This document shows positions 19,025 through 42,976 of a DNA stretch of 43,263 nt, in pieces. The stretch comes from Polyangia bacterium. GTDB taxonomy: Bacteria; Myxococcota_A; Polyangia; Polyangiales; Sandaracinaceae. The position numbers and the translations under genes are program-made. Within the stretch, counting starts at the first letter, position 1. The number at the start of each line of letters is the position of its first letter. Below the pieces are notes generated by a model. It ran no database searches, had not been told where the DNA came from, and saw only the letters and a program-made list of their open reading frames with translations. The stretch is from contig JAUHXR010000034.1 of NCBI GenBank assembly GCA_030426845.1, positions 1 through 43,263 on the forward strand, in the 5' to 3' direction.

Positions 19025-20146
19025 TTACAGCACCTTCGTGCGCGTCTGCTCCGCGAGGTCCGCCTCGGACAGCGACCCCGTCCGCTGGTACTCGAGGTGC
19101 TGCTCCCACTTGCGCACCGTCAGCTCGTTGAACCGCTTCACGGCGGGGTTGGGCTCCGGGATGGGGCGGTCGATGTGCCTGAGGTAGGAGATCTGCTCCT
19201 CCTCCACGGTGAAGCCGTCCTGCCGGAAGATCTCGGCCGCGACCGGCTTGAGCGCGGGCATCGCGAGGTCCCACAGCGGCCGCGGCACCTTGCGGCCGGC
19301 CAGGGTAGGGGGCTCCCAGAGCTGGAAGGTGAACACCCGGGTCGTGGTGTCGTCCATCGGGAGCATGAAGTTGGTCGACCGGACCCGCCGGTTGCTCAGC
19401 GCGCTCTGGTACGGGTAGTCGTAGATCATGAAGGTGTCGCTCTCGTTGGAGCCCTTCCCCTTGCGGAAGAACCGCGAGGTGAACGGGTGCATCCAGTCGC
19501 GGCGCAGGTCGTGCTCCCAGAGCAGCGTGATCTTGTCGCCGACGAGCGTGTGGTCGGCGAGGACGGTGTCGCCGTAGGGCACCCAGCTGCCGTGCACCCA
19601 GAGGTGGGTGAGGTTGCAGAGGTTGTCGATGATCATCGAGTGGTGCGCGCGCCAGGTGTAGTGGAAGCGCAGGCTCGCCCACTCGTCGGCGTGGGGGATC
19701 TCGACGAGCGGGGTCACCGTGGCGAGCTCGGGGTCGCCGGGGAAGAACCACACGATGCCGTAGCGCTCGCGGGTCGGGTAAGCGCGGACCGAGACGACGG
19801 GGAGGCGCTTGCCGAAGTGGTCGTGCTTCATGTCGACGAGGGCGCCCGAGCGGTCGAACGTCCAGCCGTGGTAGAGGCACACCAGGTTGCACCCCTCGAC
19901 CGAGCCGTGGCTCAGCTTGATCTGCCGGTGCGGGCAGCGGTCCTCCACGACCTGCACGACGCCATCTGCGCCTCGGTAGACCGCGAGGTCGTCGCCGGAG
20001 AAGCGGGTGGAGGTGACGCCGCCGCGAGGGATCTCGTGGCTGAACGCGGCGGGGTACCAGTGGTGGGGGCTCATGCCGGCGTCCCGCGCGCGGCGCGCGA
20101 GGCTGCCGCCGCGGGGCGCGGCTCGGGCGGTCTGGGTCTGGGTCAC
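19025..20146 (-). CDS. Rieske non-heme iron oxygenase (PaO/VanA type)
   Basis: A 373-residue protein with an N-terminal Rieske domain (CPHRQ and CLYHGW, the CxH and CxxH pairs with 16 residues between). The C-terminal catalytic domain has the iron site near NLCNLTHLWVHG (the two His of the 2-His-1-carboxylate site; a distal Asp/Glu is expected but not pinned down). It resembles Rieske monooxygenases that act on aromatic or steroid-type substrates with a separate reductase; neither substrate nor reductase is evident. The start is taken as the GTG at 20146, which has TTAAAT 9 nt upstream; an ATG at 20074 (MSPHHWYPAAF) is the alternative and removes a basic N-terminus. The Ser/Thr kinase gene follows 27 bp later. 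The small Rieske ferredoxin at 895-1209 could be an electron donor in principle. Confidence 0.85.
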   Translation of the reverse strand: MTQTQTARAAPRGGSLARRARDAGMSPHHWYPAAFSHEIPRGGVTSTRFSGDDLAVYRGADGVVQVVEDRCPHRQIKLSHGSVEGCNLVCLYHGWTFDRSGALVDMKHDHFGKRLPVVSVRAYPTRERYGIVWFFPGDPELATVTPLVEIPHADEWASLRFHYTWRAHHSMIIDNLCNLTHLWVHGSWVPYGDTVLADHTLVGDKITLLWEHDLRRDWMHPFTSRFFRKGKGSNESDTFMIYDYPYQSALSNRRVRSTNFMLPMDDTTTRVFTFQLWEPPTLAGRKVPRPLWDLAMPALKPVAAEIFRQDGFTVEEEQISYLRHIDRPIPEPNPAVKRFNELTVRKWEQHLEYQRTGSLSEADLAEQTRTKVL

Positions 20147-20155
20147 TGCGCGGCC

Positions 20156-20185
20156 ATTTAACCCCCGATCCGCCCATCGGAACAA
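20156..20185 (-). promoter_or_regulatory. Promoter for the Rieske oxygenase (leaderless type)
   Basis: Minus strand: TTGTTC (20185-20180), 18 bp, then TTAAAT (20161-20156), which is 9 nt before the GTG start at 20146. The A/T-rich -10 stands out in the GC-rich sequence. Confidence 0.45.
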
Positions 20186-20195
20186 GCGCGCGGGG

Positions 20196-20225
20196 TTGGC
20201 CCGTTGACTGGACTCCGCATACCCT
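20196..20225 (+). promoter_or_regulatory. Promoter for the second NtrC gene (leaderless type)
   Basis: TTGGCC (20196-20201), 18 bp, then TACCCT (20220-20225), 8 nt before the ATG at 20234. It lies back to back with the Rieske oxygenase promoter; the two -35 elements are only 10 bp apart. Confidence 0.4.
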
Positions 20226-20233
20226 CGCAGACC

Positions 20234-21604
<1,371 letters not shown>

Positions 21605-25168: not shown

Positions 25169-25183
25169 CTACTCGATGTCGCC
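25128..25183. repeat. Four 14-bp tandem repeats spanning the kinase stop codon
   Basis: Units at 25128-25141 and 25142-25155 are identical (tactcgatgccgtg). Those at 25156-25169 and 25170-25183 are variants (tactcgatgctgtc, tactcgatgtcgcc). The stop codon of the kinase-ATPase gene (25169-25171) sits at the junction of the third and fourth copies. The unit is 14 bp, so it does not preserve frame. Confidence 0.9.
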
Positions 25184-28100
25184 GTCGAGCTCGATCAGCC
25201 GCCGGTTCACCGGCACCTCGACGAGGAAGCGCGCCCGCCAGCTCGTGTCCTCGATCCGCCCGGCGAGGAACTCGAGCCGGCTCGCGCCGCGGGCCACGAC
25301 CTCGCGCGCGCGGTCCGTCTGACCGAGCGCCCGCAGCGCCTCGGCGAGGGCGAGGAAGATCTCGGCCTCGTCCTCCTCCATCGTCCCGATCTCGTCGCGC
25401 AGCTCCATCGCCCGCTCCGCGTCGGCGAGCGCGCCCTCGGGGTCGTCGCCCTCCAGGGCCGCGCGCGACGCGAGGGCGAGGGCGCTGGCCGCGAGCGCGG
25501 GGAGCCCCGTCGCCTCGGCCTCGGCGGCCACCCGGCGGGCCTCGTCTGCGACCTCGAACGGGTTGTCCTGGGCGAGGCTCGCCCGCGCTCGGTAGAGCCG
25601 GGCCGCCACCGCGAGCCGCGGCCGACCGAGCTCGGTCGCGAGGGCGAGGGCCTCGTCGAACGCGACCCGCGCCTCGGTCGGAAGGCCCCGGCCCGCGAGC
25701 GCGTAGCCCAGGTTCGCGAGCGCGTAGCCCTCCACCACGCGGTTCCCGACGCGGCGACACGACGCGACCGCCTCACGCAGCGCCGCCTCGGCCTCCTCGT
25801 AGGCGCCCACACGGTTGAACGTGTCGGCGAGGTTGCACTCGGAGGTCGCCGCGCGCCGCAGGTCCCCGATCGCGCGGAACGCCGCCACCGCCTCCTCGAG
25901 CGCCGCCTTGCGCTTGCCGAGGTCGCCCATCGCGGTGAAGAGCTGCCCGCGCCACGCCGCGACCATCGCCGCCGTCTCGCGCGAGAGCCCGGGCATCGCC
26001 GCGGCCTCCCCGATCGGTACGCTCGCGTCGCTTACCCGGCCCGCATACAGCAGCCCCCAGCCGAGCCGCGCGAGGGCCAGCGCCAGCAGATCTGGGTCGC
26101 CGGCCACGCGCGCCGCCGCCACCGCCTCTTCGGCCAGCCGGAGCCCCTCCTCCTGAGCCCCGCTCGCCACGAGCAGCGCGCCCTTCTCCACCAGCGCGCG
26201 GGCCCGCTCGAGGGTCGAGCCGGCCAGCTCGAGCGCGGTCTCGATCGACGCCCGCTGCGCGGCCTTGTCCCCGAGGAAGAAGAGCGCGTCGGCCCGCGTC
26301 ACGTGCAGCTCGAACGCGTGGCGGTCGTCCACCCCGAGCGCGATCGCCCGCTCGCTGCACCGGAGCACGCTCGGGCTGTCACCCCGCTTGGACGCGGCGA
26401 GGGTCGCCTCGACGTAGGCGCGCGCGGCCTTCGCCGGCTCGCCGCCGCGCTCCCAGTGCCGCGCGAGCTCCTCGCGGTCCGAGCCGGGCATGCCTTCGAG
26501 GAAGCTGGCCGCGAGCCGGTGCAGCGCCCGGCGCGCCTCCTCGCTGTTCATCCGGTAGGCGACGTCGGCCACGAGCGCGTTGCGGAAGCGGTACTCCCGC
26601 TCGTCGGGTCCGCGCGACGACCCACCGCCGGCGTCCGCGACGAGCCCGCGCTTGGCGAGCGCCCCGAGGTGTCGCTCTGGCTCGGGCTGCTCGAGCGCGC
26701 GGAGCGCCGGCCCCGTGAAGCCGCTCGTGAGCACCGCCGCGCGCTTGCAGAGCTGCTTCTCGTTCGACGGAAGGTGGTCGAGCCGCGACTGGACCGCGCC
26801 CTCGACGTCGAGGGGGATCGGCAGCTCCTCGATCGGCCGGTCGAACAGATCCTGCTCGACGATCTCGCGCACGATCTGCTCGACGAAGAACGGGTTGCCC
26901 TCGGTGCGCGCCGCGATCTGCCGCGCGATCGCGGGCCGCAGCGCCCGCCCGGCGATCGCCTCGGCGAGGGACGCGACCTCGCGCTCGGAGAGGCCGCGCG
27001 GCCGGATCCGCAAGACGTCCTGCCCGTGGAAGAGCTCCGGCGCGCGCTCGTCGAGCTCCGGTCGCGCGGCGAGGCAGACCAGGAGGCGCTCGCCGGTGAG
27101 CCGGCCCGCGAGCTCCTCGAGCAGCGACAGCGAGCTGTCGTCGGCCCACTGCACGTCGTCGAGCACGAGCGCGAGCGGCCCCTTGCGCGCGAGCGTCCCG
27201 ATCACGTCCGCGAGCGAGACGCGCAGCTTGTCTGCGAGGAGCTGCGGATCGCTCCGGCGCCGCGCGGGCTGGGTGTCGTAGTCGTCGGGGAAGCCCATGA
27301 GCCGACCCAGCGGCTCGGTGCACTGGCGGGCCCAGACCTCGTCCTCGAGCACGCGGGTGAGGAAGTCCGAGAGCGCGCGCCGCCGGCGGCCCACGCTCAC
27401 CCCCGGGTTGAGGAAGAACGGCTCGAGCATCGGCTCGCTCCGCAGCGCGCCCGCGATGAGGTGGAACGCGGCGCCGCGGCGGTGGGACTCCCCGCGTCCT
27501 GCGAGGACGTGCACGCCCCGTTGACGGAGCCGCCGCTCGAGCTCGCCCCGCAGCCGGCTCTTGCCGATGCCGGGCGGTCCGCTCATCCACAGGACGGTGC
27601 CGCGGGCCTCGTCGAAGGCGGCCTCGACCGCCCGCTCGAGCTGGGCGAGCTCCGCCTCGCGCCCGAGCAGCGGCAGGTCGTCGCGGACCGTGGGGAAGCG
27701 GCCGGTCTCGCGCCGGCTGAGCGCGCGCGGCACCTCGAAGACGTGCTCGGAGATCCGGCGAAGCTCGAAGTGCGCCTCGAGCCCGCGGGCCGCCACCGTG
27801 TCGACGGCCACGCCCTTGAGCCGCGCCTCCACCGCCCGCTCGACCGCGTCGACCGCGTCGCCGCTCACCGCGCCGCCAGCGCCGGTCGCCCGCCCCGCCG
27901 CCACCGCGACGAACCCGGCCGAGTCGCGCGCCTCGAGCGCGGCCTGGACGGCCCGCACCGTCTCGTCCCCCTCGTAGGTGCGCCCCCCGAACACGCCCAC
28001 CGCGCCGCCGAGCATCGGGATCGACTCGCCGCCCCACTCGCGCACCGCGCGCCGCAGCGCGGGCAGGTCGTGCACCTCCGTCGCGAGCACGAGCGCGACC

Positions 28101-28990
28101 ACCCGCTGCTCGTCCATCGGCAGGCTGACCGGGGCGGACGGCGGCGGCTCGGCGGCGACGGCCGACTGTGACAGGTCCAGGCTGGCGAGCGCGTCCCCCA
28201 GCTCGGTCGCGCTGCACCAGCGCTTGCTGGGGTCCTTCGCCAGGCAGCCCTGGACGATCTCGGCGAAGCCCGGGACGAGCGCCTCGCCGTCCTCGCCGAG
28301 GGTGGGCGCCTCCTCGAGCACGACCGCGAGGATCGTCGCGACCGCGGTCGTGCGGATGAACGGGTTCTTGCCGGCGACGGCCTGGAAGAGGATCACCCCG
28401 AGCGACCACAGATCGGCGGACGGCCGGATGTCGACGTCGCCCTTGGCCTGCTCGGGAGAGAGGTAGCCAGGGGTGCCGATCACCGAGCCGGCCATCGTGA
28501 GCTGGGGGCCGGCCTGGCTCATCGGGCGGGCGATCCCGAAGTCGAGGATCTTCACCGTCCCGTCCTCGCAGACGAACACGTTGCCCGGCTTGAGGTCGCG
28601 GTGGACGATGTTGCGCTCGTGGGCGGCGCGCAGCCCAGCGCAGATCTGGCGGCCGATGTCGACCACCTCCTCGATGGGCAGCGGCGCGTGCTCGAGGCGC
28701 TTGTTCAGGGGGACGCCCTCGAGCAGCTCGAAGGCGATGTAGCTCACGCCCTGGTCCTGGCCGGCGTCGACGACCTTGACGACGTTCGGGTGCTCGATGC
28801 GGATCTCGCCCTCGCGGCGGAAGCGCGCGATGGTCTCCTCGCTGTCCGCGTGGGGCGCGAGCACCTTGAGCGCGACCTTGCGGCCCTGGCCGTCGGTCGC
28901 CCGGTACACCGTGCCGAAGCCGCCCGAGCCGAGGATGCCCCCGAGGGTGAAGTCGCCGAGGACCTTGGCGGGTCGCGGATCGCTGCTCAA
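25169..28990 (-). CDS. Multidomain Ser/Thr kinase with degenerate cyclase-like, AAA-ATPase and TPR domains
   Basis: A 1273-residue cytoplasmic protein. The kinase domain (about 13-275) is intact: GSGGFGTVYRA, Lys42 in VALKVL, HRDLKPGNV, ILDFGIA and GTPGYLSPEQA. Residues about 295-435 resemble a class III nucleotidyl cyclase domain in outline (ALVLATEVHDLPALRRAV, GGAVGVFGG, LKGVAVDTVAA) but lack the metal-binding Asp pair, so it is probably inactive. An AAA ATPase of the MalT/AfsR type follows (Walker A GPPGIGKSR near 470, Walker B LALVLDDVQWADD near 605-617). TPR-like repeats fill about 800-1273. This order is known in PknK-like proteins and matches large cytoplasmic sensor-transducers. It starts at TTG (28990) with GGAG 7 nt upstream. 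The upstream genes in the same direction include two FHA proteins that could bind its phosphorylated products. Confidence 0.88.
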   Translation of the reverse strand: MSSDPRPAKVLGDFTLGGILGSGGFGTVYRATDGQGRKVALKVLAPHADSEETIARFRREGEIRIEHPNVVKVVDAGQDQGVSYIAFELLEGVPLNKRLEHAPLPIEEVVDIGRQICAGLRAAHERNIVHRDLKPGNVFVCEDGTVKILDFGIARPMSQAGPQLTMAGSVIGTPGYLSPEQAKGDVDIRPSADLWSLGVILFQAVAGKNPFIRTTAVATILAVVLEEAPTLGEDGEALVPGFAEIVQGCLAKDPSKRWCSATELGDALASLDLSQSAVAAEPPPSAPVSLPMDEQRVVALVLATEVHDLPALRRAVREWGGESIPMLGGAVGVFGGRTYEGDETVRAVQAALEARDSAGFVAVAAGRATGAGGAVSGDAVDAVERAVEARLKGVAVDTVAARGLEAHFELRRISEHVFEVPRALSRRETGRFPTVRDDLPLLGREAELAQLERAVEAAFDEARGTVLWMSGPPGIGKSRLRGELERRLRQRGVHVLAGRGESHRRGAAFHLIAGALRSEPMLEPFFLNPGVSVGRRRRALSDFLTRVLEDEVWARQCTEPLGRLMGFPDDYDTQPARRRSDPQLLADKLRVSLADVIGTLARKGPLALVLDDVQWADDSSLSLLEELAGRLTGERLLVCLAARPELDERAPELFHGQDVLRIRPRGLSEREVASLAEAIAGRALRPAIARQIAARTEGNPFFVEQIVREIVEQDLFDRPIEELPIPLDVEGAVQSRLDHLPSNEKQLCKRAAVLTSGFTGPALRALEQPEPERHLGALAKRGLVADAGGGSSRGPDEREYRFRNALVADVAYRMNSEEARRALHRLAASFLEGMPGSDREELARHWERGGEPAKAARAYVEATLAASKRGDSPSVLRCSERAIALGVDDRHAFELHVTRADALFFLGDKAAQRASIETALELAGSTLERARALVEKGALLVASGAQEEGLRLAEEAVAAARVAGDPDLLALALARLGWGLLYAGRVSDASVPIGEAAAMPGLSRETAAMVAAWRGQLFTAMGDLGKRKAALEEAVAAFRAIGDLRRAATSECNLADTFNRVGAYEEAEAALREAVASCRRVGNRVVEGYALANLGYALAGRGLPTEARVAFDEALALATELGRPRLAVAARLYRARASLAQDNPFEVADEARRVAAEAEATGLPALAASALALASRAALEGDDPEGALADAERAMELRDEIGTMEEDEAEIFLALAEALRALGQTDRAREVVARGASRLEFLAGRIEDTSWRARFLVEVPVNRRLIELDGDIE

Positions 28991-29074
28991 GCGAGGCTCC
29001 AGGGCGGGGTGAGGGCCACCGCCCCCTGAGAACTACCGCGGATCGGGGGCGCGCGTCGAGCGGCGTCGGCCTGC

Positions 29075-29773
29075 TCAACCCCCTCCGATGCGGATCGGGA
29101 GGCGCGACGCCGGCGCCGGCCGCGGGCGCCGCCGGCCGCGGCGCCGCACGCGCTGCTCCTCCTCGAAGCGCTGGTCGAACGAGAAGACCGCGTCGTGGTC
29201 GGGGACCGTGAAGCTCATCACCGGGTCGCGGGGGCGGAGCAGCTCGTTGTCCGCGGTCGCGATGCGGATCTGGAACGTCGTCTGCGGCGCGGTGCGCATG
29301 TGGACGTGCGCGGCCCCGCTCGCGTCGGTGCGCGCGACCTCGCGGCCGTCGACGAGGACCGGCAGGCCGGCCTGGTCGTGGGTGCGCACGATGACGACCG
29401 CGTCCCGGTGCTCGGGCGGGCAGTCGAAGGTGACCTGGACGCCGCGCGCGGCCGCCGCCGGGTCGAGGCTCTGGATGGTCCGCAGGGTGACCTGCTGCGG
29501 CGCCTCGGGGGACCGGTAGCCCTCGGGGCAGGTCGCGCTCACGAGGACCGGGACGCCCTCGGGGCCGGTGAGGTCCTGGCGGAGCGTGCCCGACTCGTCG
29601 GTCGCGCCGAGCTCGGTGTCGTTCACGCGCACCGTCACGCCGCCGAACGGGCGTCCGTCGCTCGTGGTGTGGAAGGTGAACGGGAAGCGCGGCGGCGGCT
29701 GGGCCTCCTCCCCGCAGGCGGCGCCGAGCGCGACGCAGAGCGAGAGGCCGATGAGGCGAGAGCACATCGCCAT
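29075..29773 (-). CDS. Ig/PEGA-like lipoprotein
   Basis: A 232-residue protein with signal MAMCSRLIGLSLCVALGAAC; the Cys follows GAA, so the lipobox is imperfect. After a short linker come two beta-rich stretches: FHTTSDGRPFGGVTVRVND with TDESGTLRQDL (carboxypeptidase-regulatory-like), and VLVDGREVARTDASGAAHVH (PEGA-like). The end is very basic (RRRGRRRPRPAP). The start could be 29773, 29767 or, with a longer N-terminus, 29869, which would overlap the preceding FHA gene; the shorter form gives the proper signal. It lies between the second FHA gene and the large kinase gene. An envelope-side partner of the FHA proteins is a plausible role, unproven. Confidence 0.7.
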   Translation of the reverse strand: MAMCSRLIGLSLCVALGAACGEEAQPPPRFPFTFHTTSDGRPFGGVTVRVNDTELGATDESGTLRQDLTGPEGVPVLVSATCPEGYRSPEAPQQVTLRTIQSLDPAAAARGVQVTFDCPPEHRDAVVIVRTHDQAGLPVLVDGREVARTDASGAAHVHMRTAPQTTFQIRIATADNELLRPRDPVMSFTVPDHDAVFSFDQRFEEEQRVRRRGRRRPRPAPASRLPIRIGGG

Positions 29774-29850
29774 CTCGCGGAGCGCGCCGCCCGAGATCGG
29801 GCGCGAGGGCCGCCGCAAACCCGGAACGCAGTTCGGCGCGGGGGTACGGG

Positions 29851-31422
29851 TCAAGGGGTCGCGTCGCATGGGCCTCCTGTGGGGCTTCGGCCGTCCACGC
29901 AGCGCTCGGCGCGTCGCTCGAGCAGCTGGACCATCGCGCGGTAGGCGTCGTCGTCGGGGTGGCGCTCGAGGAGCCGTCGGTATCCCGTGAGCGCGTCGTC
30001 GTAGCGTCCGGCGAGGTAGGCGTCGGCCGCGAGCCGCTGCCACGACACGCCCTCCGCGTTCGCCTCCACCGTCTCGTCGGTCGCCATCTCCGTGCCCTCG
30101 GACGGCGGGGCGTCGCCCGAGCTTGGGGGATCGCCTTCGTCGGGCCCGGCCGGCTCGACCCCGCCTCCCGCCGCGACCGGGCTGTCCGGATCGGCTCCCT
30201 CCTGCGCGGCCGGGGTCGGCGTCTGGGTGGTCGGCGTGGTCGGCGTGGTCGGCGTGGTCGGCGTGGCACTGCCGGCGCCGACGTCGACGACCGGTCCCTG
30301 CGCGGGCGGCGCGGTGGGTTCGGGCGGCGGGTCCTCCTCCCAGAGCAGGAGCGCCATCGCCGCGACGACGGTGACCGAGAGCAGCGCCCAGGTCCGCATC
30401 GGGAGCGACTGCTTCTTGGCGCCGTCGTCCGCGGGCTTCCTGCCGCCGCCGAACAGGCGCTTGAAGAGGCCGGGCTTCGTGGCGGCGGGCGCGGCTCCTT
30501 GGGCCGGTGGCGGCGCGAAGGCGGCCGGCCCGCTCGGCGGGGCGCCGGGGCTCGACGGGGGCGCGGCGGCCGGCGGCTCGACCGGGGCCGAGGCGACCGG
30601 CGGAGGCGGAGGCGGCGGGCTCGGGGGAGCGAGCGCGGGGGGCGGCGGCGCGGGGGCCGCGCGCGGCGGCGCGGGCGGAGGCGCGACCACCGCCGCGGGG
30701 GGTGCGCCCAGCACGGGCGCGGGCGGGGCGGGGGGCTGCGCGATGGGGCGGGCCGCGGGCAGCGCGACCATCCGGGTCGCTCCCGCCGCGTGCGGGTCGG
30801 CGGCCGCCGGCGGCCCGCCCAGCTGACCGCCGAGCCGCGGGCGCAGGTCCTCCGCGAAGGGCGACCTCGCGGGCGGCGCGGGCACCCCGATGCGCATCGG
30901 CTCGGCCGACAGGCCCATCGGGGCGGCGAGCCGCGTCTTCTCCGCGTCGAGGTCCGGCACCGACTCGTCCCCGGCGGCGCCGCCGAAGGTCGCCGCGCCC
31001 GAGAGCAGCGGGACGCCGATGCTCGTGACGGTCACGGGCTTGGCCAGCTCGGGGCGGGAGCTCATCTGGTGCTGCAGCGGGGCGGAGGTCTCGATGTCGA
31101 GGGCGGCCTGGCCGAAGCGCAGCTCCGCCGGGCCCTGGATCTGCGTCCAGTCGGAGACCCGCGCGCCGTCGAGGAACACGCCGCCGACCGAGTGGATGTC
31201 GGCGACCCAGAGCGCCTGGCCGTCCCAGAACAGCTCGCAGTGGATCGGCCGCACCCCGTTGGCCTCGATGCGCCAGCCGGCGAGCGCGTCGATGCCGAGC
31301 GTCAGCCGCGCCTCGGGGTAGCCGCCGTCGATCTCCCAGATCTCGCCGGGCGAGCTTCCGCGCCGGAGGTGGGCGCGCGCCCACGCGGTCTCGGCGGAGG
31401 GATGTCCCTTCGGGGCTGCCAA
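29851..31422 (-). CDS. FHA-domain membrane protein with Pro-rich linker and C-terminal TPR-like part
   Basis: A 523-residue protein. The N-terminal FHA-like domain (about 28-110) has RLTLGIDALAGWRIEANG, HCELFWDGQALWVADIHSVG and VFLDGARV, in place of the usual SxxHA and NGTxVNG, so phosphothreonine binding may be altered. A very long Pro/Ala-rich linker (about 120-335) follows, then a membrane helix (about 340-358), Thr/Pro repeats (TPT)n and a helical TPR-like end (WQRLAADAYLAGRYDDALTG). It starts at TTG (31422). The layout (FHA - linker - TM - TPR) is the same as that of the first FHA protein in the cluster, so the two may be paralogues working on both sides of the CpaF ATPase. It likely spans the inner membrane with FHA inside. 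Confidence 0.82.
   Translation of the reverse strand: MAAPKGHPSAETAWARAHLRRGSSPGEIWEIDGGYPEARLTLGIDALAGWRIEANGVRPIHCELFWDGQALWVADIHSVGGVFLDGARVSDWTQIQGPAELRFGQAALDIETSAPLQHQMSSRPELAKPVTVTSIGVPLLSGAATFGGAAGDESVPDLDAEKTRLAAPMGLSAEPMRIGVPAPPARSPFAEDLRPRLGGQLGGPPAAADPHAAGATRMVALPAARPIAQPPAPPAPVLGAPPAAVVAPPPAPPRAAPAPPPPALAPPSPPPPPPPVASAPVEPPAAAPPSSPGAPPSGPAAFAPPPAQGAAPAATKPGLFKRLFGGGRKPADDGAKKQSLPMRTWALLSVTVVAAMALLLWEEDPPPEPTAPPAQGPVVDVGAGSATPTTPTTPTTPTTQTPTPAAQEGADPDSPVAAGGGVEPAGPDEGDPPSSGDAPPSEGTEMATDETVEANAEGVSWQRLAADAYLAGRYDDALTGYRRLLERHPDDDAYRAMVQLLERRAERCVDGRSPTGGPCDATP
30229..30264 (-). repeat. Four 9-bp tandem repeats (Thr-Pro-Thr) in the second FHA gene
   Basis: ggtcggcgt is repeated four times in perfect tandem (30229-30264), encoding (TPT)n in the region after the membrane helix. 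Confidence 0.9.
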
Positions 31423-31514
31423 TGCTTCGGGGGGTCGCGACGGGAGGGAGGGATCCGCAGCATAGCATCCGCGTCGTCGGACGCCGCCTTACGACCGGGG
31501 GCTCGGCCGCGGGC

Positions 31515-32624
31515 TCAGCCGTGGCCGGCCATGTAGATCGACCCGGGCAGCTCGTAGCCGTGTCCCTGGAGGACCTCGGTGGCGCGGGGGATGAACCCGG
31601 TCGGGCCGAAGGTGCTCTGGATCCGCCCGTCCGCGCCCTGCCCCTCGTAGCGGCGCTCGAACACGTTCTCGAGGTTGTAGCCGGCGTCGGGATGGTAGCC
31701 CTGCACCTCGGCGATGTGGGTGACGCACCGCGAGCCGTCCCGCAGGCGGCTCGTCTGGACGATGAAATCGATCGCGCTCGCGATCTGCGCGCGCATCGCG
31801 CGGAGCGGCATCTGCACGTCGCTCATCATCGCCATCGTCTCGAGGCGGTTCATCGTGTCGGTCGGGTAGGTGGCGTGCACCGTCGCGAGGCAGCCGCCGT
31901 GGCCCGAGGTCATCGCCTGCACGAGGTCGAGCGCCTCGGCGCCGCGGATCTCGCCGACCACGATCCGATCGGGCCGCATCCGGAGGGTCGCCTTGAACAG
32001 ATCGCGGATCGAGACCGCGCCGCGACCGCGCGCGTCCGGCGGCCGCGACTCCATCTGCACGACGTGGGTCTGCTGGCACTGGACCTCGCGCGTGTCCTCG
32101 ATCACCACGATGCGTTCGTCCTCGGGGATGAAGCCGGTGAGCGCGTTGAGGAGCGAGGTCTTGCCGCTGCCGGTGCCGCCCGCGACGATGATGTTCTGCT
32201 TCACCGCGACGATGCCGCGGAGCAGCTCCGCGGCGTCGGGGGTGAACGAGCCGAACGAGAGGAGCTTGTCGACGGTCAGGGTCTCCTTCGAGAAGCGACG
32301 GATCGCGACCATCGGCCCGTCGGGGGCGGCCGGCGGCAGGACCGCCTCGACGCGCGAGCCGTCGGGGAGACGCGCCTCGAGGATCGGCCGGTGCTCGTCC
32401 ACGTGGCGGCCGACGAACTGCGCGAGGTTGCGCAGCGCGGCCGTGAGCGCGTCGGTGCTCGGGAACCGCGCCTCGGTGAGGTAGAGCTTGCCTGCCCGCT
32501 CGACGAAGATCTGATCGGGGCCGTTGATCATCACCTCGGACACGGTGGTGTCGTCGAGGAACGGGCGGACCGGCTCGAGGAACTTGAGGAGCGACTGCTC
32601 GAAGACTTCGCGCGGGATCGTCAC
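31515..32624 (-). CDS. cpaF: CpaF/TadA-type secretion ATPase (VirB11-like)
   Basis: A 369-residue ATPase of the type II/IV secretion family. Features: TVSEVMINGPDQIFVERAG (N-terminal domain typical of CpaF), Walker A GGTGSGKT at about 148-155, Asp box IEDTREVQC, Walker B RIVVGEIRGAEALDLVQAM and His box GHGGCLATVHA. These are all intact, so it should be an active hexameric motor. CpaF/TadA powers Tad pili and related secretion or killing machines with TadB/TadC, RcpA secretin and Flp pilin. None of these is in the window, so the rest of the machine is elsewhere or the ATPase is repurposed. The start GTG at 32624 overlaps the stop of the TPR lipoprotein by 4 bp (GTGA), so translation is coupled. 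Confidence 0.95.
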   Translation of the reverse strand: MTIPREVFEQSLLKFLEPVRPFLDDTTVSEVMINGPDQIFVERAGKLYLTEARFPSTDALTAALRNLAQFVGRHVDEHRPILEARLPDGSRVEAVLPPAAPDGPMVAIRRFSKETLTVDKLLSFGSFTPDAAELLRGIVAVKQNIIVAGGTGSGKTSLLNALTGFIPEDERIVVIEDTREVQCQQTHVVQMESRPPDARGRGAVSIRDLFKATLRMRPDRIVVGEIRGAEALDLVQAMTSGHGGCLATVHATYPTDTMNRLETMAMMSDVQMPLRAMRAQIASAIDFIVQTSRLRDGSRCVTHIAEVQGYHPDAGYNLENVFERRYEGQGADGRIQSTFGPTGFIPRATEVLQGHGYELPGSIYMAGHG

Positions 32625-33352
32625 TCGCTCGTGTCCTCCTCGTCCGCGCCAGGGTCGGTCGACTCGGCGCCCGTCGACTCAGGGCCGGTCGACTCGGCGC
32701 CCGTCGACTCATGGCCGGTCGACCCCGCGCCGGTCGACTCAGACGTGGCGGTGATCGGCACTCCGTTCGCGTCGACCCGGATGGGCAGCCGGTGGGTGAG
32801 CGCCGGGATCGAGGCGCGCGCCTCCTCGGTGTGTGGGCCGCCGGGCGCAAGGGCCAGGTAGCGCTCGAAGTGGCGGGCCGCGGCGTCGCGGTCGTCGAGG
32901 CGGTCGCGGTACAGCACGCCGAGGAAGTAGTGGGCCTCGGGCGGCTCCTCGGGCGCGTCGCGCAGGACCCGCTCGAGGTGGTCGTGCGCGACCGCGTGGT
33001 GCTCGAGGCCCATGTGGATCGACGCCACGAGCAACCGCAGCGACCAGCGCGTCGGGTGGCGCTCGAGGAACGGCTCCGCGTAGGAGAGGGCGGCGACGAG
33101 GCGCTCGCCCTCGACGCAGGCGCGCAGGAGCGACGGCAGCGCGCGCTCCTCGGGGAAGCCGCGCCGGATCGCGGCCGCGTAGTACTGCTCGGCGCGGACG
33201 AAGTCGCCAGCCTGGGTGAGGATCTCGCCGCGGCGGAACAGCTCCTCGCCGCTGATCGAGTCGAGCGGGTCGTCCGCGGTCGTGGGGCTCCCCTCCTGGG
33301 CGGCGCCGCAGGCGGTGAGGGTGAGGACCGCGGCGGCGAGGCACGCCCTCAT
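32621..33352 (-). CDS. TPR lipoprotein with Thr/Ser-rich repeat tail
   Basis: A 243-residue protein with a good lipoprotein signal (MRACLAAAVLTLTAC). Helical TPR-like pairs span about 30-175 (SGEELFRRGEILTQAGDFVR, HAVAHDHLERVLRDAP, AHYFLGVLYRDRLDDRD), with a disordered tail of repeated ESTGA/ESTGP units. It is probably a periplasmic or outer-membrane assembly lipoprotein, like the TadD-type TPR lipoproteins that occur with Tad machines. The ATG overlaps the stop of the FHA gene upstream by 4 bp, and its own stop overlaps the CpaF start by 4 bp. The tail's 15-bp repeats suggest a variable-length spacer. Confidence 0.85.
   Translation of the reverse strand: MRACLAAAVLTLTACGAAQEGSPTTADDPLDSISGEELFRRGEILTQAGDFVRAEQYYAAAIRRGFPEERALPSLLRACVEGERLVAALSYAEPFLERHPTRWSLRLLVASIHMGLEHHAVAHDHLERVLRDAPEEPPEAHYFLGVLYRDRLDDRDAAARHFERYLALAPGGPHTEEARASIPALTHRLPIRVDANGVPITATSESTGAGSTGHESTGAESTGPESTGAESTDPGADEEDTSE
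32657..32741 (-). repeat. Five to six 15-bp tandem repeats in the TPR lipoprotein tail
   Basis: Alternating 15-bp units, ggtcgactcggcgcc and cgtcgactcagggcc with variants, run from 32657 to 32741, coding for the ESTGA/ESTGP tail. Identical copies at 32657-32671 and 32687-32701 suggest that a 30-bp dimer was also duplicated. Confidence 0.9.
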
Positions 33353-34212
33353 GCCGCCGCCGAGTCGATCGCGAGCTGGAGCTGACGCTCGAGCTGCTGG
33401 AGCCAGAGGACGTAGGGGTCGGCCGGCTTGTGCAAGAGGAGCTGTCGGAGCGCGCGGGTCTCGAGGAGCGCGTCGGGGAGCCGCCCCTGCTCGAGCGCGC
33501 GCTCGAGCCGGAGGCGGTGCGTGCGGTAGTCCTCCTCGATGCGCCGCTGCATCCGCTCGCCCTCGCTGTGCATCACCTCGGCCTCGGTGGTGCGCTCGAG
33601 GGCGCGGTAACAGGCCTCGGCGCGCCGGTAGCGCTCGACCGCCTGCACGCCGTCCTGGGAGCTGAACGGGTAGCGCTCGCTCTTGGCGATGGCCGCCTCG
33701 GCGTCCTGGTCCGCGCGGTGGCGGGTGTTGCCGCCGGTCGCGGGGCAGCTCGGCGCCTCCCCGAAGAGCGCAGGGGGCGGCGCGGCGGGCGTCGCGTCGA
33801 TCCCGCTCGTGTCGTCCGAGAGGAGCAGCCAGCCGACGAGGGGGATGATCACGAAGGCGGCGATGAGCACCGGGGCCGAGACGGGCTTGTCGCTCGGGTC
33901 CTTCTTCTCCTCGGGGAGCCGATCGGCGAGGCGCAGGCGCAGGGCCCCGACCTCGAGCTCGGTGCCCCAGGCGAGCATCCCCTGCGAGAAGGGCTCGCCG
34001 CGGACCTTCACGATCGCCCCGGCGCCCTGGGCCACCGCGACCCAGCAGCCGTCGGCCCGCGGCGCCAGGAGGAAGTGCTCCGGCTCGAGGCTGCGCGCGT
34101 CGGGGATCGGGATGCCCGCGCTCGGAGCGCGGCCCACCGTGACCTGCTCGCCCTCGATCCGCTGACGCTCGAGGGTCCCGTCCTCGCGGATGATCTCCAG
34201 CCAGACGTCCAC
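33349..34212 (-). CDS. FHA-domain membrane protein (first gene of the CpaF cluster)
   Basis: A 287-residue protein with an N-terminal FHA domain (about 1-97): VTVGRAPSAGIPIPDARSLEPEHFLL gives the GR motif at 27-28 and the S/H phosphopeptide positions near 41-46, although the usual NG is replaced by RG. A membrane helix follows (112-131), then a Pro-rich bend and a helical region with coiled-coil or TPR-like character (AVERYRRAEACYRALERTTE, ALEQGRLPDALLETRALRQL). FHA domains bind phosphothreonine, so the protein should report kinase activity to its neighbours. The start is GTG at 34212. The stop overlaps the TPR lipoprotein start by 4 bp. Confidence 0.85.
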   Translation of the reverse strand: MDVWLEIIREDGTLERQRIEGEQVTVGRAPSAGIPIPDARSLEPEHFLLAPRADGCWVAVAQGAGAIVKVRGEPFSQGMLAWGTELEVGALRLRLADRLPEEKKDPSDKPVSAPVLIAAFVIIPLVGWLLLSDDTSGIDATPAAPPPALFGEAPSCPATGGNTRHRADQDAEAAIAKSERYPFSSQDGVQAVERYRRAEACYRALERTTEAEVMHSEGERMQRRIEEDYRTHRLRLERALEQGRLPDALLETRALRQLLLHKPADPYVLWLQQLERQLQLAIDSAAA

Positions 34213-34332: not shown

Positions 34333-37300
34333 TCAGAGCCCGACGGTCAGCGTCGGCCGCATCGGATCGAGGGTCGTGCCGTCGCCCAGCTGGCCGGCGC
34401 CGCGGTTGCCGACGCACGCCCAGCCGCTCGCGCGGCGCACGCAGGTGGTCGAGTTGCCCCCGACGATCTCGAGCGCGCCGGTGAGCCCCGGCCAGGACAC
34501 CGGGGTCGTGAAGCTCGTCATGCCGGTGACCGTCTCGCCACCGTTGCCGAGTTGGCCGTCGAGGCCGTAGCCCCAGCAGGAGACGCCGCCCGCCGTCTCG
34601 ATCGCGCACATGTAGTTGTACCCGGACGCGATCGCGGTCGCGCCGGAGAACGCGAGCACCGGGGTCGCCGAGTCGGTGGTCGTGCCCTGCGCGAGCTGGC
34701 CGTAGAAGTTGTCGCCCCAGCACCACACGTCCGAGCCGACGAGCGCGCAGGAGTGGGCCGAGCCGACCGCGATCTGGGTGGCCGCGCCGGCGGGCAGGCC
34801 CGTCACCGCGAGCGGCGTCGCCGAGTCGGTGCCCGCGGTGCCCGTGCCAAGCTGGCCCGAGCCGTTGTCGCCCCAGCAGGACACGCCGCCGCCGCTGCGG
34901 AGGAGGCAGCCGTGGTTGTTCCCGAGCGCGATCCGGGTCGCGTCGGTCACGCCCATGAGCGACACCGGCGTGCTCTGATCGTCGGTCGTCGAGCCGTCGC
35001 CGGCCTGGAAGTTGTCGTTGTCGCCCCAGCACTGGACGGCTCCCGCGACGCGGACGCAGGCGAACTGCCCGCCGACCGCGATCTCGTCGACCACCCCGAG
35101 GCCGGTCACCGGGACGGGCACCGCGCTGTCGGTGGTGCTCGTGCCGCCCTGGCCGAGCTGGAAGGCCGAGTTGTCGCCGAGGCACGCCACGCCGAGGGAG
35201 GTGCGGCCGCAGGAGAACGCCCCGCTGAGCGCGCCCTGGATCGTCCCGACGAGGCCGGGGATGACGGTCATCTGGTTCAGGTGCGAGCTGAACCCGGGGA
35301 ACACCCCGACCGCGCCGGTGACGGTGGACGTCGACACCGTGTCGCCGCTGCCCGCGCACTCGATGTCGCCGGTCCCGAAGGCAGCGCAGAGCTGGCCGAG
35401 GTAGGTGCTCTTCGAGATCGCGAGCTGGGTCGGCGCGCCCGCCGAGACAAACGCGACCGGCGAGCTCAGGTCGAGCTGGTAGCCGCTCTGGTGCCCGAGC
35501 TGGCCCTCCTCACCGTAGCCCCAGCAGAGCCGCTGGTTCGTGGTCGTCACCGCGCAGGCGCCGCGCCCGCCCGCCTCGACGTCGCGGAACGAGCGCCCGG
35601 TGAGCCCCGGGACGAGCTGCGGGGTGGTCTGGTCGAGGTTGCTCGCCTGGCCGGTCTCGTAGTCGGTCGACTCGCCCCAGCAGTAGATCGCGTCGTTCGA
35701 GAGGAGCGCGCAGACGAAGTCGGTGCCGACCGAGACGTCGACCGCGGTCGCGGGCAGCGTCACGAGGGTGGGCGTCGAGCGGTCGGTGGTGGTCCCGTCG
35801 CCGATCTGGCCGTCGAGGTTGTCGCCCCAGCAGTAGACCTCGCCCGCCATCGTGCGCGCGCAGGTGTTGTTGAAGCCCGTGTCGAGCTGGACCACGCCGG
35901 TGAGGCCGACCGCCACGGTCGGCGTCTCGGAGTCGGTCCCCGGGCTGCCGTCGCCGAGCTGGCCGTTGTCGTCGTCACCCCAGCAGGCGACGGTGGCGTC
36001 GTCGAGGAGCGCGCAGGTGTGGTCGCCGCCGGCGCTCACCGCGGTCGCCGTGCGGCCCGCCGGCAGGGTCACCGGGATGGGCGTCTCGCTGTCCGTGGTC
36101 GAGCTCCGCCCGAGCTGCCGGTTGTCGCCGTCGCCCCAGCACTGGATCTGCCCGAAGCTGTCGAGCACGCAGGTGTGGTCGCCACCGGCCGAGACCGCGC
36201 GCATGCCGGTGAGGCCCGCGATCTGCTGCGGCACCGGCTGGTCGTTCGCCGTGCCGGCGACCCCCTGCTGGAGGTTGCTGTTGTCGCCCCAGCACCAGAC
36301 GGTCCCGCCCGCGCGGAGCGCGCAGTGGTGCTCGTCGCCCGCGGTGATCTGGGTCGCGTCCGCGATCGAGGTGTCCGCCGGGACGAAGGTCTCGACGTTG
36401 TCGGTGCCGTTGCCGACCTCCGACTCGGTGTTGTCGCCGAAGCAGCCGACCCGGCCGGTCGCGGTGAGGACGCAGCCGCCGAAGCCGCCGAGGGCCACGT
36501 CGGCCAGCGTCTCGCTGAGCGTGCAGGTGCTCGGCCCGAGCCCGCTGCAGCTCCAGCCGAACTCGATCCCGCAGGTCGCGTCGCAGCCGTCGCCGTTGGT
36601 GATGCCGCCGTCGTCGCAGCCCTCGCCGCCGACCACCACGCCGTCGCCGCACGCGGTCGCGCACACGCTCGGCTCGCCGGTGCAGCGGAAGCCCGTCTCG
36701 GTCGCGCAGCTCGCGTCGCAGCCGTCGCCGGCGGTCGCGTTGCCGTCGTCGCAGGTCTCGGCCCCGACGATCACCCCGTCGCCGCAGCTCGTGGTGCAGA
36801 CGCTGGGCTCGCCCGTGCAGCTGTACCCGAGCTCGCTCTGGCACGACATGCTGCAGCCGTCGCCGTCGGTCATGTTGCCGTCGTCGCAGGTCTCGACCGC
36901 CGCGACGACGCCGTCGCCGCAGCCCGCCATGCACACGCTCGGTTCCCCCGCGCACGAGAAGCCGCGCTCGACCGTGCAGGTGTCCGAGCACCCGTCGTCG
37001 ACCGCCGTGTTGGAGTCGTCGCACTCCTCGATCGTCGCGACGACGCCGTCGCCGCACACCGCGGTGCAGACGCTCGGCTCGCCGGCGCAGGTCACGCCCG
37101 CCTCGACCACGCAGGTGTCGGAGCAGCCGTCCAGCGCGTCGGTGTTGCCGTCGTCGCACACCTCGGTGCCCGCGATCACGCCGTCTCCGCACACCGTCGC
37201 GCACGCGCTCGGCTCGCCCGTGCACATGTAGCCCGCCTCGACCTCACAGGCGTCCGAGCAGCCGTCACCGGCCGCGGTGCCGCCGTCGTCGCACGCCTCC

Positions 37301-37623
37301 ATCCCGGCGAGGATCCCGTCGCCGCAGATCGGCGCGCACGCGCTCGGGCTCCCCGTGCAGGTGAACCCGGCCTCGACCTCGCACGCGTCGGAGCAGCCGT
37401 CGCCCGAGTCGTTGTTGCCGTCGTCGCACGCCTCACCCGCGTCCATCGCCCCGTCGCCACAGACCGCGGCGATGGGGCCGCCGTCCGGCTCGGGCCCCGC
37501 GTCGCCAACGGGCGGGCCCGCGTCGCCGACGGGCGGGCCGCTGTCGGTGGGGGGATCGCCGTCGTCGCAGGCGCTCAGCGCGACGAGGAACGCGAGAGGC
37601 GTGAGGAATCTGAGGTGACGCAT
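34333..37623 (-). CDS. Lipoprotein with seven Cys-rich (DUF4215-like) repeats and about fourteen RCC1-like blades
   Basis: A 1096-residue protein. Signal MRHLRFLTPLAFLVALSAC (lipobox LSAC), an acidic Gly/Pro linker, then seven tandem Cys-rich units of about 44 residues (about 53-360), each with CGDG...E.CDDGN...GDGC....C......C. This pattern is the myxobacterial Cys-rich repeat family (DUF4215). The C-terminal two thirds (about 365-1096) hold roughly fourteen RCC1-like repeats, each carrying a WCWGDN-type motif and CAL or CVL before it. RCC1 repeats form seven-bladed propellers, so two propellers are likely. A surface-anchored, disulfide-rich binding protein is the best guess. It is separated from the CpaF cluster by 120 bp and from the downstream porin-like gene by 157 bp, on the same strand as both. 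Confidence 0.9.
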   Translation of the reverse strand: MRHLRFLTPLAFLVALSACDDGDPPTDSGPPVGDAGPPVGDAGPEPDGGPIAAVCGDGAMDAGEACDDGNNDSGDGCSDACEVEAGFTCTGSPSACAPICGDGILAGMEACDDGGTAAGDGCSDACEVEAGYMCTGEPSACATVCGDGVIAGTEVCDDGNTDALDGCSDTCVVEAGVTCAGEPSVCTAVCGDGVVATIEECDDSNTAVDDGCSDTCTVERGFSCAGEPSVCMAGCGDGVVAAVETCDDGNMTDGDGCSMSCQSELGYSCTGEPSVCTTSCGDGVIVGAETCDDGNATAGDGCDASCATETGFRCTGEPSVCATACGDGVVVGGEGCDDGGITNGDGCDATCGIEFGWSCSGLGPSTCTLSETLADVALGGFGGCVLTATGRVGCFGDNTESEVGNGTDNVETFVPADTSIADATQITAGDEHHCALRAGGTVWCWGDNSNLQQGVAGTANDQPVPQQIAGLTGMRAVSAGGDHTCVLDSFGQIQCWGDGDNRQLGRSSTTDSETPIPVTLPAGRTATAVSAGGDHTCALLDDATVACWGDDDNGQLGDGSPGTDSETPTVAVGLTGVVQLDTGFNNTCARTMAGEVYCWGDNLDGQIGDGTTTDRSTPTLVTLPATAVDVSVGTDFVCALLSNDAIYCWGESTDYETGQASNLDQTTPQLVPGLTGRSFRDVEAGGRGACAVTTTNQRLCWGYGEEGQLGHQSGYQLDLSSPVAFVSAGAPTQLAISKSTYLGQLCAAFGTGDIECAGSGDTVSTSTVTGAVGVFPGFSSHLNQMTVIPGLVGTIQGALSGAFSCGRTSLGVACLGDNSAFQLGQGGTSTTDSAVPVPVTGLGVVDEIAVGGQFACVRVAGAVQCWGDNDNFQAGDGSTTDDQSTPVSLMGVTDATRIALGNNHGCLLRSGGGVSCWGDNGSGQLGTGTAGTDSATPLAVTGLPAGAATQIAVGSAHSCALVGSDVWCWGDNFYGQLAQGTTTDSATPVLAFSGATAIASGYNYMCAIETAGGVSCWGYGLDGQLGNGGETVTGMTSFTTPVSWPGLTGALEIVGGNSTTCVRRASGWACVGNRGAGQLGDGTTLDPMRPTLTVGL

Positions 37624-37780: not shown

Positions 37781-39070
37781 TCAGTCGTAGAGCCGCGCCT
37801 GGAGGACGAGGGTGAAGGGCGAGCTGCCGAAGTCGCTCGTCGGCACCCCCGAGACGGGCGCCGAGCCCCACGGGAACAGGCCGCTGAGGATCACGGTGAC
37901 GTTGTCGGAGTGGTTGTAGGTGAACGCGAGGCTCACCAGGCCCGAGCCGTCCACCGGGCTCTGCAGGTAGCTCAGCGCGGCCGCGAGCTCGTCGACCAGC
38001 TCCATCCCGAGCGCGAGGGCGAGCGCGTGACGGCCGAAGATCTGCGAGTCCCCGCGCGCGAACCGCTCGAGGAAGCGCGGCTCGAACAGGATGTCCGGCC
38101 GCTCGCCGACGTTCTCCACCCCGAAGCCGCTGTAGTGGTACTCGAGGTTCACCCGCAGGCCGCGGTGGATGTCGAAGACGTAGGAGCCGCCGAGCACCCC
38201 CTTGGCGACCACCGCGCGGGTGCCGAAGAGGCCGCCGTCGATCCCCTCGCCGTCGGTCCCGAAGAGCGCGAGCTCACCGTGCATCTCCGCGTCGCCCACG
38301 TTCGCGCTCAGCACCGCCCCGACCATCGTGTCCTCGCCGCGGCGCCCGAGCATCACGGCGCCGTCCACGTCGCCGACGATCGCGCGCAGCCGGCCGAGCG
38401 CGGCGTAGCTCGCGAGCCCGTCGGCGCTCGCCGTACCGAACGCGACGATGACGTCCGCGCTGAGCTCGCTGATGTCGGGGATCCGCAGCTCCGCGTGCAC
38501 CGCGTCCACGCCCCGCCGCCACTCGCGGTCGGCCTCGGTGGGCACAAACGGGGCGAAGATGTCGACCGCGCTGAACATGACCCCGCGGCCGAGCCCGATC
38601 GCCTGGCGGCCGACCGTCAGCTCGAGGAACGGGAGGTGGAGCGCGACGTAGGCCCGGTCGAGCTCGTGGCGGTGGAGGTAGCTCGGCGCGTCGTCGACGA
38701 TCGCCCAGTCGAGCTGGCGGAGCCGGAACGGGGCCGGCGTGGTCGGCGGCAGGATCCCCGCGCCAGTGCTGCCGCCCGAGGCCATCCGCGCGCGGTGCTC
38801 GTAGGCCACCGCGGCGCTGAAGTGCTCGGTGAGGTTGGCGGTCAGGTCGAAGCGCAGGCGGAAGAGGCCCGCGCCGGTCGGCGTCTCGGGCCAGAGCGCC
38901 GGGTCGTCGTAGAACGGCGTGGCGAGCAAGAGGGTGCTCTTGAACGCGCTCCGCAGCTCGAGCGTGTACTCGCCCTCCTCGAAGAGGGTGCGCGCCGAGG
39001 CGGGGGCCGGCGCCGCGAGCGCGCACGCCAGCGCGGCGGCCAGCGCGCAGGGGGCGGCGGCGCGCCTCAT
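37781..39070 (-). CDS. Outer-membrane beta-barrel (porin-like) protein
   Basis: A 429-residue protein with a signal peptide (1-26) and a beta-rich mature part typical of an outer-membrane barrel: alternating strands such as GLFRLRFDLTANLTEHFSAA, LTVGRQAIGLGRGVMFS and FTLVLQARLYD at the end. The GRQAIGLGRG motif is common in porin-type barrels. It is the last gene of the ABC-type export operon, and its start overlaps the TetR stop by 4 bp. It is a plausible outer-membrane exit or insertion partner for the exporter. The substrate is unknown. Confidence 0.8.
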   Translation of the reverse strand: MRRAAAPCALAAALACALAAPAPASARTLFEEGEYTLELRSAFKSTLLLATPFYDDPALWPETPTGAGLFRLRFDLTANLTEHFSAAVAYEHRARMASGGSTGAGILPPTTPAPFRLRQLDWAIVDDAPSYLHRHELDRAYVALHLPFLELTVGRQAIGLGRGVMFSAVDIFAPFVPTEADREWRRGVDAVHAELRIPDISELSADVIVAFGTASADGLASYAALGRLRAIVGDVDGAVMLGRRGEDTMVGAVLSANVGDAEMHGELALFGTDGEGIDGGLFGTRAVVAKGVLGGSYVFDIHRGLRVNLEYHYSGFGVENVGERPDILFEPRFLERFARGDSQIFGRHALALALGMELVDELAAALSYLQSPVDGSGLVSLAFTYNHSDNVTVILSGLFPWGSAPVSGVPTSDFGSSPFTLVLQARLYD

Positions 39071-39783
39071 CCGTCGTCTCGCGGGTCGTCTCCGTCATCG
39101 TCGGCCAGCGCGTCGCGCGGCGGTGGCGCCTGGAGCAGCCCGTGGAGCAGCACGTCGGTCATCGTCTCGGCGAACTCGTCGAGGTCGCGGCCGTGCCGCA
39201 CGCGCGGCTCGAGCAGCAGAGCCGTCATGTAGCGCATCGCGAGCATCACCTCGGCGCGGTCCCGCTTCTCCTCGCGGCTGAACTCGTCGGGCGCGGCGGC
39301 CTCGATCAGAGCGCTCAGCCACTGGATCCCGAGCTCCTCGCCGCGCTCCATGACCTCCGGGTCCATGTCCTCGAGGGCGACCATGAGCTCCCCGTCCTGG
39401 CGGAGCAGCCGCGCCACGAGCGGGAGGTCGCGCCCCACGGTGAGCATCTCGCGGACATAGAGGCGAATGCGCGTCTCGCCGTCGGTCTTCGCGTCGAAGA
39501 TCGGCTCGAAGCGATCCCAGAGGACCCGCTTCTCGAGCGCCACCGCGTGCAGCAGCAGCGCTGACTTCGTGGGGAAGTAGAGATACACGGTGCCCTTGGC
39601 GACCTCGGCGCGCCGCGCGATCTCGTCGACGCTCGCCTTGCGGTAGCCGCTCTCGCGGAAGACGTGCAGCGCCGCGCGGAGGATGCGCGCGCGCCGGCGC
39701 GCCTTCGGGCTGTCGGGGTCGTCGTCGGGGAAGAACTCCTTGTAGACGTCCTGGAACAGCTCCTTGGTCCACTTCCAGGCCAC
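39067..39783 (-). CDS. TetR-family transcriptional regulator
   Basis: A 238-residue protein with a clear N-terminal TetR helix-turn-helix (RRARILRAALHVFRESGYRK followed by ASVDEIARRAEVAKGTVYLYF; residues about 28-75), then an all-helical ligand-binding region (FAETMTDVLLHGLL) and an acidic tail. The GTG at 39783 is used. It is 2 bp after the ABC ATPase gene and overlaps the barrel gene by 4 bp. As a regulator inside an export operon it probably controls that operon in response to a small molecule, perhaps the exported substrate. Confidence 0.9.
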   Translation of the reverse strand: MAWKWTKELFQDVYKEFFPDDDPDSPKARRRARILRAALHVFRESGYRKASVDEIARRAEVAKGTVYLYFPTKSALLLHAVALEKRVLWDRFEPIFDAKTDGETRIRLYVREMLTVGRDLPLVARLLRQDGELMVALEDMDPEVMERGEELGIQWLSALIEAAAPDEFSREEKRDRAEVMLAMRYMTALLLEPRVRHGRDLDEFAETMTDVLLHGLLQAPPPRDALADDDGDDPRDDG

Positions 39784-39785
39784 GT

Positions 39786-40490
39786 TCAGCGCTCCTCGCG
39801 ACGCTCGTCGCTCGTGATCTTGCCGTCGACCAGCCGCACCACCCGGCTCGCGTGCGCGACGACCCGCGGGTCGTGGGTCGAGAACACGAAGGTGACGCCG
39901 TGCTCATCGTGCAGCGTCTCCATCGCCTGCATCAGCTGCTCGGCGTTGTCCGTGTCGAGGTTGGCGGTCGGCTCGTCCGCGAGCACGAGCTTGGGGCGCG
40001 AGGCCACCGCCCGCGCGACCGCGACGCGCTGCTGCTGCCCACCGGAGAGCTCGTTCGGGCGCCGGTCCGCCAGCTCGGCGAGGCCGAGCTCCCCGAGCAC
40101 CTCGAGGGCCCGCGCGCGTCGCTGCGCCTTGCCGACGCCCTGCAGCTCGAGCACGAACTCGACGTTCTCGGCCGCGGTCAGCACGGGCACGAGGTTGTAC
40201 GCCTGGAACACGAAGCCGAGCGAGCCGAGCCGCAGCTTCGCGCGCTGCGCCTTGCCGAGCTTCGTCAGCCGCTGGCCCACCAGCTCGACCTCGCCCGACG
40301 TCGGCTGGTCGAGGGCGCCGAGGAGGTTGAGGAGGGTGGTCTTGCCGCTCCCCGACGGGCCGACCAGCGCGACGAAGTCGCCCGCCTCGATCGAGAGGTC
40401 GATCCCGCGCAGGGCCTGCACCTCGAGCTTGCCGTTCTTGAACACCTTGGTGACGCCTTCGGCCACCGCCACGTAGGGCTTCGAAGTCAT
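39786..40490 (-). CDS. ABC transporter ATPase (LolD/MacB type)
   Basis: A 234-residue ATPase with Walker A GPSGSGKTT, Q-loop FQAYNLVP, signature LSGGQQQR, Walker B LVLADEPTANLD and H-loop STHD. The Q-loop plus the length fit the LolD/MacB/FtsE family, which works with FtsX-like permeases. The ATG at 40490 overlaps the end of the second permease gene by 4 bp. With the two permeases next to it, it should energise a mechanotransmission-type exporter rather than a classical importer. Confidence 0.93.
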   Translation of the reverse strand: MTSKPYVAVAEGVTKVFKNGKLEVQALRGIDLSIEAGDFVALVGPSGSGKTTLLNLLGALDQPTSGEVELVGQRLTKLGKAQRAKLRLGSLGFVFQAYNLVPVLTAAENVEFVLELQGVGKAQRRARALEVLGELGLAELADRRPNELSGGQQQRVAVARAVASRPKLVLADEPTANLDTDNAEQLMQAMETLHDEHGVTFVFSTHDPRVVAHASRVVRLVDGKITSDERREER

Positions 40491-42966: not shown

Positions 42967-42976
42967 GGGTGCGTCC

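Follow-up and report, generated by a model that had tools for sequence, protein, structure and literature searches.

What does a Tad-type motor ATPase do inside a block of FHA and TPR proteins that ends with a giant protein kinase? The question is raised by a stretch of 43,263 nucleotides from a Polyangia bacterium of the family Sandaracinaceae, referred to here as the window. It is contig C39 (74% GC) of a genome of 9.4 Mb in 538 contigs. ORF analysis of the window shows six genes on the minus strand, all leftward, in the order FHA1, TPR lipoprotein, CpaF2, FHA2, Ig lipoprotein (LIPO) and kinase (Table 1), with 4-bp overlaps between FHA1 and TPR as well as between TPR and CpaF2. This is in good agreement with the initial annotation, which had described the same leftward block of six genes and the 4-bp overlaps of its first three members.

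The reading frames of the kinase, CpaF2, TPR and FHA1 are marked by a third-position GC content of about 0.97, and the coding frames of FHA2 and LIPO are backed by third-position GC as well. Domains of the window proteins were assigned with Pfam and NCBIfam profiles. Within the block, Pfam yields T2SSE (E = 5e-60), Pkinase (1e-47), AAA_16 (1e-22) and TPR repeats. FHA2 matches the Pfam FHA model at 5e-5, and FHA1 gives a match of 5e-5, below the cut-off, to Yop-YscD_cpl, an FHA-like domain. The predicted structure of LIPO shows generic Ig/CnaB-like matches only. A cyclase domain had been ascribed to the kinase protein, for which Pfam reports none at E<=0.1. Elsewhere in the window, a leftward run at 37781-43137 comprises a LolCDE-like ABC exporter (two FtsX/MacB permeases and one ATPase), a TetR regulator and a weakly Wzi-like protein, and a Rieske oxygenase with a VanA C-terminal domain and an N-terminal extension of about 500 residues is encoded at 19025-21562.

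Table 1. Genes of the block, in window coordinates.
Feature	Position	Strand	Basis or remark
FHA1: FHA-fold domain (1-100), one TM helix (~114-131), TPR-like helices in the periplasm; arranged as in YscD	33349-34212	-	
TPR lipoprotein; syntenic in relatives	32621-33352	-	ORF, Pfam
CpaF2: second Tad-type motor ATPase, NTD and catalytic domain only	31515-32624	-	Pfam, tree
FHA2: degenerate FHA domain, Pro-rich linker, TM, TPR	29851-~31422	-	TTG start uncertain
LIPO: lipoprotein, two Ig/CnaB-like beta-sandwich domains	29075-29773	-	ATG start
Ser/Thr kinase-AAA_16-TPR protein	25169-28990	-	Pfam

When 38 related genomes were searched with CpaF2, most gave two matches, as a rule separated by a few kilobases. 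The first is the CpaF2 orthologue, mostly 55-87% identical, while the second is a CpaF of 44-49% identity that carries an N-terminal FHA domain; the FHA-fused CpaF is called KilF here. KilF is present in all 29 genomes with CpaF2 (29/29) and occurs alone in two, with neither found in the other seven; these genomes are related, so that the counts are not independent. In relatives, the genes follow the order CpaB, CpaC secretin, KilF, TadB, TadC, FHA1, TPR, CpaF2, FHA2, LIPO. Of the best 80 GTDB loci listed, 72 extend more than 3.5 kb upstream from CpaF2, and in 59 of these 72 the profiles place TadC and KilF just upstream, in the same orientation. Judging from this gene order, the window block corresponds to the 3' half of an operon for a Tad-type (type IVc) pilus, a half that stands detached in this genome. 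The operon belongs to mostly predatory soil and marine bacteria. The relatives bear out the assignment of the block to a Tad or secretion module by the initial annotation, and they show conservation of the order FHA-TPR-CpaF-FHA, for which it had proposed a search. What it had called an undescribed regulatory collar reads instead as the second half of a Tad operon, and a stand-alone collar around a lone ATPase is ruled out by the synteny with that operon.

The window's own genome has the operon interrupted between TadC and FHA1. Its other half lies on contig C424 as CpaB-CpaC-KilF-TadB-TadC, followed by a VKOR gene, so that TadB and TadC, for which the initial annotation had suggested a look elsewhere in the genome, do occur there. 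The C424 secretin matches PF00263 and CpaB matches PF16976, and KilF combines FHA (E = 3.5e-12) and T2SSE (E = 2.6e-64) in a single protein. A third contig, C504, encodes a prepilin peptidase, TadE and a TadG-like gene (PF01478, PF07811 and PF13400, over their cut-offs), with a weak Flp-pilin match beside the peptidase (PF04964, 21.8 bits at a cut-off of 32.2). Since its parts sit on the window, C424 and C504, we conclude that this genome encodes a Tad machine in separate parts. The break point is occupied by a lipoprotein that combines DUF4215 with about ten RCC1 repeats (window 34333-37623), which precedes FHA1 exactly where TadC would adjoin. The split may be a misassembly of this MAG, but FHA1 without TadC upstream recurs in three further loci (L088, L092 and L095).

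Other interruptions and copies were observed as well. Two Sandaracinaceae loci are broken after CpaF2, one by a 5.6 kb insertion before FHA2 (L051, 5674-11290), the other lacking FHA2-LIPO downstream (L049, 1-7770). The window's genome holds a second Tad-like locus on C144 (L048, 1-5244), with the end of a kinase-PEGA gene, CpaB, TadB, TadC and an FHA1-like protein, and with no motor or secretin before the contig end. It resembles kil cluster II of Myxococcus.

The detachment raises the possibility that CpaF2, FHA2 and the Ig lipoprotein constitute a separate secretion or envelope machine, merely travelling with the Tad operon. Such a machine would account for the separation of FHA1-TPR-CpaF2-FHA2-LIPO from TadABC, which is seen in L088, L092 and L095 as well as in the window's genome. 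The Bradymonadia point in the same direction: in Bradymonas sediminis (L175), CpaF2 lies away from the Tad operon and is followed by a kinase-like membrane protein and then by LIPO, which remains adjacent to CpaF2 even in this group. The kinase-like protein (L175, 9876-11876) consists of a pseudokinase-like domain, a TM helix and a periplasmic part, and occupies the place that FHA2 has in Polyangia; its Pkinase match is weak, and HRD and DFG are not recognisable by eye. A separate machine is nevertheless at odds with the upstream position of TadC and KilF in most of the loci counted above, and the loci examined show no further platform gene in linkage with CpaF2. Moreover, five genomes (G005, G131, Bradymonas sediminis, Microvenator marinus and Persicimonas caeni) have KilF and CpaF2 but only one Tad-type TadB/TadC pair. 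We therefore regard this explanation as unlikely.

The initial annotation had further reasoned that a full Tad locus containing a CpaF of its own would expose this copy as a decaying duplicate. This holds in part, as the same genome does possess such a locus, which speaks for redundancy, but the copy is not decaying. In the maximum-likelihood tree, CpaF2 forms one clade (support 100/100, stem 0.64), which covers Polyangia, Bradymonadia and one Riflebacteria MAG and is set apart from other CpaFs and from KilF, itself a separate clade (89/89). The Walker A, arginine-finger and Asp-box residues are intact in the window CpaF2, in line with the motor motifs noted initially. Within the clade, the catalytic residues named in the CpaF structure papers, which are K287, T288, E312, R217, R223 and R347 in C. 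crescentus numbering, show 96-100% conservation, and dN/dS is about 0.26, compared to about 0.25 for KilF. Its ancient monophyly, its retained catalytic residues and this dN/dS rule out the decaying duplicate, which we grant next to no probability, and mark CpaF2 as an ancient, constrained paralogue. In the Riflebacteria MAG (L142), KilF, TadB, TadC and CpaF2 occur together, by horizontal transfer or binning error.

CpaF2 also differs in its architecture. Several stop-to-stop frames leave about 150 residues before Walker A, which is too few for a three-helix bundle, and the bundle is therefore taken to be absent. In C. crescentus CpaF it comprises residues 80-146, and its deletion was reported to leave no detectable CpaF (PMC12019362). 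A survey of 292 CpaF orthologues distinguished three architecture classes, each with the bundle, which was counted among the minimum elements of a CpaF (PMC12019362); CpaF2, having none, departs from all three published classes. With 55 bits against the PilT/PilU family model TIGR01420 (cut-off 319), it is not a member of that family.

A further difference concerns residues predicted to contact the platform, several of which vary little or not at all in KilF and other CpaFs yet are altered in CpaF2. R206 is lost, E331 is exchanged for K/R (85%), R198 for N (96%) and N329 for D (99%), while G204 and G334 are kept. The contact map derives mainly from an AlphaFold3 model and two C. crescentus mutants. 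When E331 was replaced by Lys along with changes to its three neighbours in C. crescentus, phage infection was reported as blocked, together with a caution about lowered expression (PMC11300603). Losses of ancestral invariants affect 6 of 13 positions in the platform-contact region versus 17 of 86 elsewhere, an enrichment that is not significant (Fisher p = 0.07), so that the changes are only a hint. They would suit the separate machine discussed above. They also bear on the idea of CpaF2 as a PilU-like accessory motor, or as a force booster or assembly ATPase, which would share the platform with KilF and support it without itself being the motor for retraction. Location in the same operon, near-obligate co-occurrence with KilF, intact catalytic residues and the minimal NTD-catalytic architecture are all compatible with such a helper, but the altered platform contacts fit an independent binding mode equally well, and none of the features observed sets a helper apart from a retraction motor. 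We consider this helper role rather improbable, though worth keeping in mind.

The two FHA proteins lead to the claim of phospho-control. An AlphaFold2 model of FHA1 (mean pLDDT 92) has the fold of an FHA domain, together with a single membrane helix and a periplasmic part made of helices, and matches phosphothreonine-binding FHA domains as well as YscD/PscD of the T3SS. The phosphothreonine-binding Arg is present in 10 of 57 FHA1 and 10 of 46 FHA2 homologues; Ser and Asn are absent as a rule, and His is kept. The FHA domain of KilF retains Arg in 65/72, Ser in 66/75, His in 67/76 and Asn in 57/62, i.e., in about 90% of the homologues with the domain aligned. According to these alignments, FHA1 and FHA2 have lost the phosphothreonine-binding residues that the FHA domain of KilF retains.

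This weakens the proposal of the initial annotation, namely a secretion module under phospho-control, with the giant kinase phosphorylating threonines that the FHA proteins then recognise. An intact kinase and FHA folds do share one block, the FHA domain of KilF is canonical, and FHA proteins are over-represented around Kil (PMC8460266). On the other hand, most FHA1 and FHA2 homologues lack Arg, Ser and Asn. So do both window proteins, which had been expected to bind phosphothreonine, and the canonical reader would be the KilF domain encoded on C424. The kinase had been counted as part of the module, but among the loci examined it is found at this place in only one relative, Sandaracinus amylolyticus (54% identical over the full length), and we regard it as accessory at most. 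Altogether, a module of this kind appears very unlikely; phospho-control, if any, is likely to act via the intact FHA domain of KilF.

The reading that we prefer, at somewhat below even confidence, is a detached half of a Tad operon with two motors, in which KilF extends the pilus and CpaF2 drives or assists its retraction on the same TadBC platform. The two-motor architecture as such is well supported. KilF, with its FHA domain, linker, three-helix bundle and CpaF core and its position beside TadB and TadC, would be the main motor and extend the pilus, its activity being gated through the FHA domain. CpaF2, reduced to NTD and catalytic domain, would be a stripped-down second motor, as PilT is relative to PilB. 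Acting on the same pilus and platform as KilF, it would most likely drive or assist retraction and disassembly. FHA1 and FHA2, as membrane proteins with degenerate FHA domains, are probably inner-membrane scaffolds that hold CpaF2, and two lipoproteins (TPR and Ig) are encoded with it as well. In C. crescentus, a single CpaF does both extension and retraction (PMC12019362, PMC11300603), and a second motor is consequently not required for retraction. A more far-reaching version is held more tentatively still: the Tad lineage of Polyangia and Bradymonadia may have evolved an antagonistic pair, with FHA-gated extension by KilF and dedicated retraction by CpaF2, the latter representing a fourth, bundle-less CpaF architecture with a rewritten platform interface; the pair would then be convergent with PilB/PilT.

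Several known systems resemble this arrangement. With the canonical Tad pilus (Cpa of C. crescentus) it shares the CpaF core, CpaB, secretin, TadB/TadC, prepilin peptidase and TadE. In the window's genome, KilF, TadB and TadC are consecutive on C424, and there are a secretin with CpaB and a prepilin peptidase with TadE/TadG-like genes; among the genes of the operon, no CpaE/TadZ localisation ATPase was recognised. Canonical Tad systems have a single bifunctional CpaF (PMC12019362, PMC11300603), whereas two motors are found here, KilF and CpaF2, which share one operon in relatives; one motor per system is a property of the studied members and not part of the definition. Because of its two motors in place of one, we file the system as a Tad variant. 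Our literature search brought up no two-ATPase Tad system, which is not proof of absence.

The Myxococcus xanthus Kil system, a contact-dependent killing apparatus (Seef et al. 2021, PMC8460266), is similar in its FHA-fused CpaF (KilF), CpaB, secretin, TadB/TadC, several FHA proteins and lipoproteins. The connection to this Tad-like killing machine that the initial annotation had drawn is thus real at the gene level. Kil was described with a single ATPase (PMC8460266), in contrast to the second, FHA-less CpaF2 here; for this reason, and as the present system is known from genes alone, it was not filed as Kil. No locus named Myxococcus is among the best 80 CpaF2 loci listed in the GTDB scan, nor was a Myxococcia genome recognised among those sampled from the phylum. 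The pairing of a long motor carrying N-terminal domains with a short NTD-catalytic motor recalls PilB/PilT of type IVa pili, but CpaF2 belongs to the CpaF/TadA branch and not to PilT, and is of independent origin. Finally, YscD/SctD of the T3SS and GltG likewise have a cytoplasmic FHA fold without phosphothreonine residues, a TM helix and a periplasmic domain; the window proteins differ in their helical (TPR-like) periplasmic part and in being encoded in a Tad operon.

Tad pili have been described with a single motor for extension and retraction alike. How one CpaF would drive both directions, and retraction in particular, has been called an open question, and bifunctionality across the CpaF family unknown (PMC11300603). 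A natural two-motor Tad system would allow extension and retraction to be separated by gene deletion, and cultured carriers exist in Sandaracinus amylolyticus, Bradymonas sediminis, Microvenator marinus and Persicimonas caeni. It would also mean that a dedicated second motor arose twice, independently. If the system takes part in predation, CpaF2 would revise the picture of Kil-like predation machines, which were described with one ATPase.
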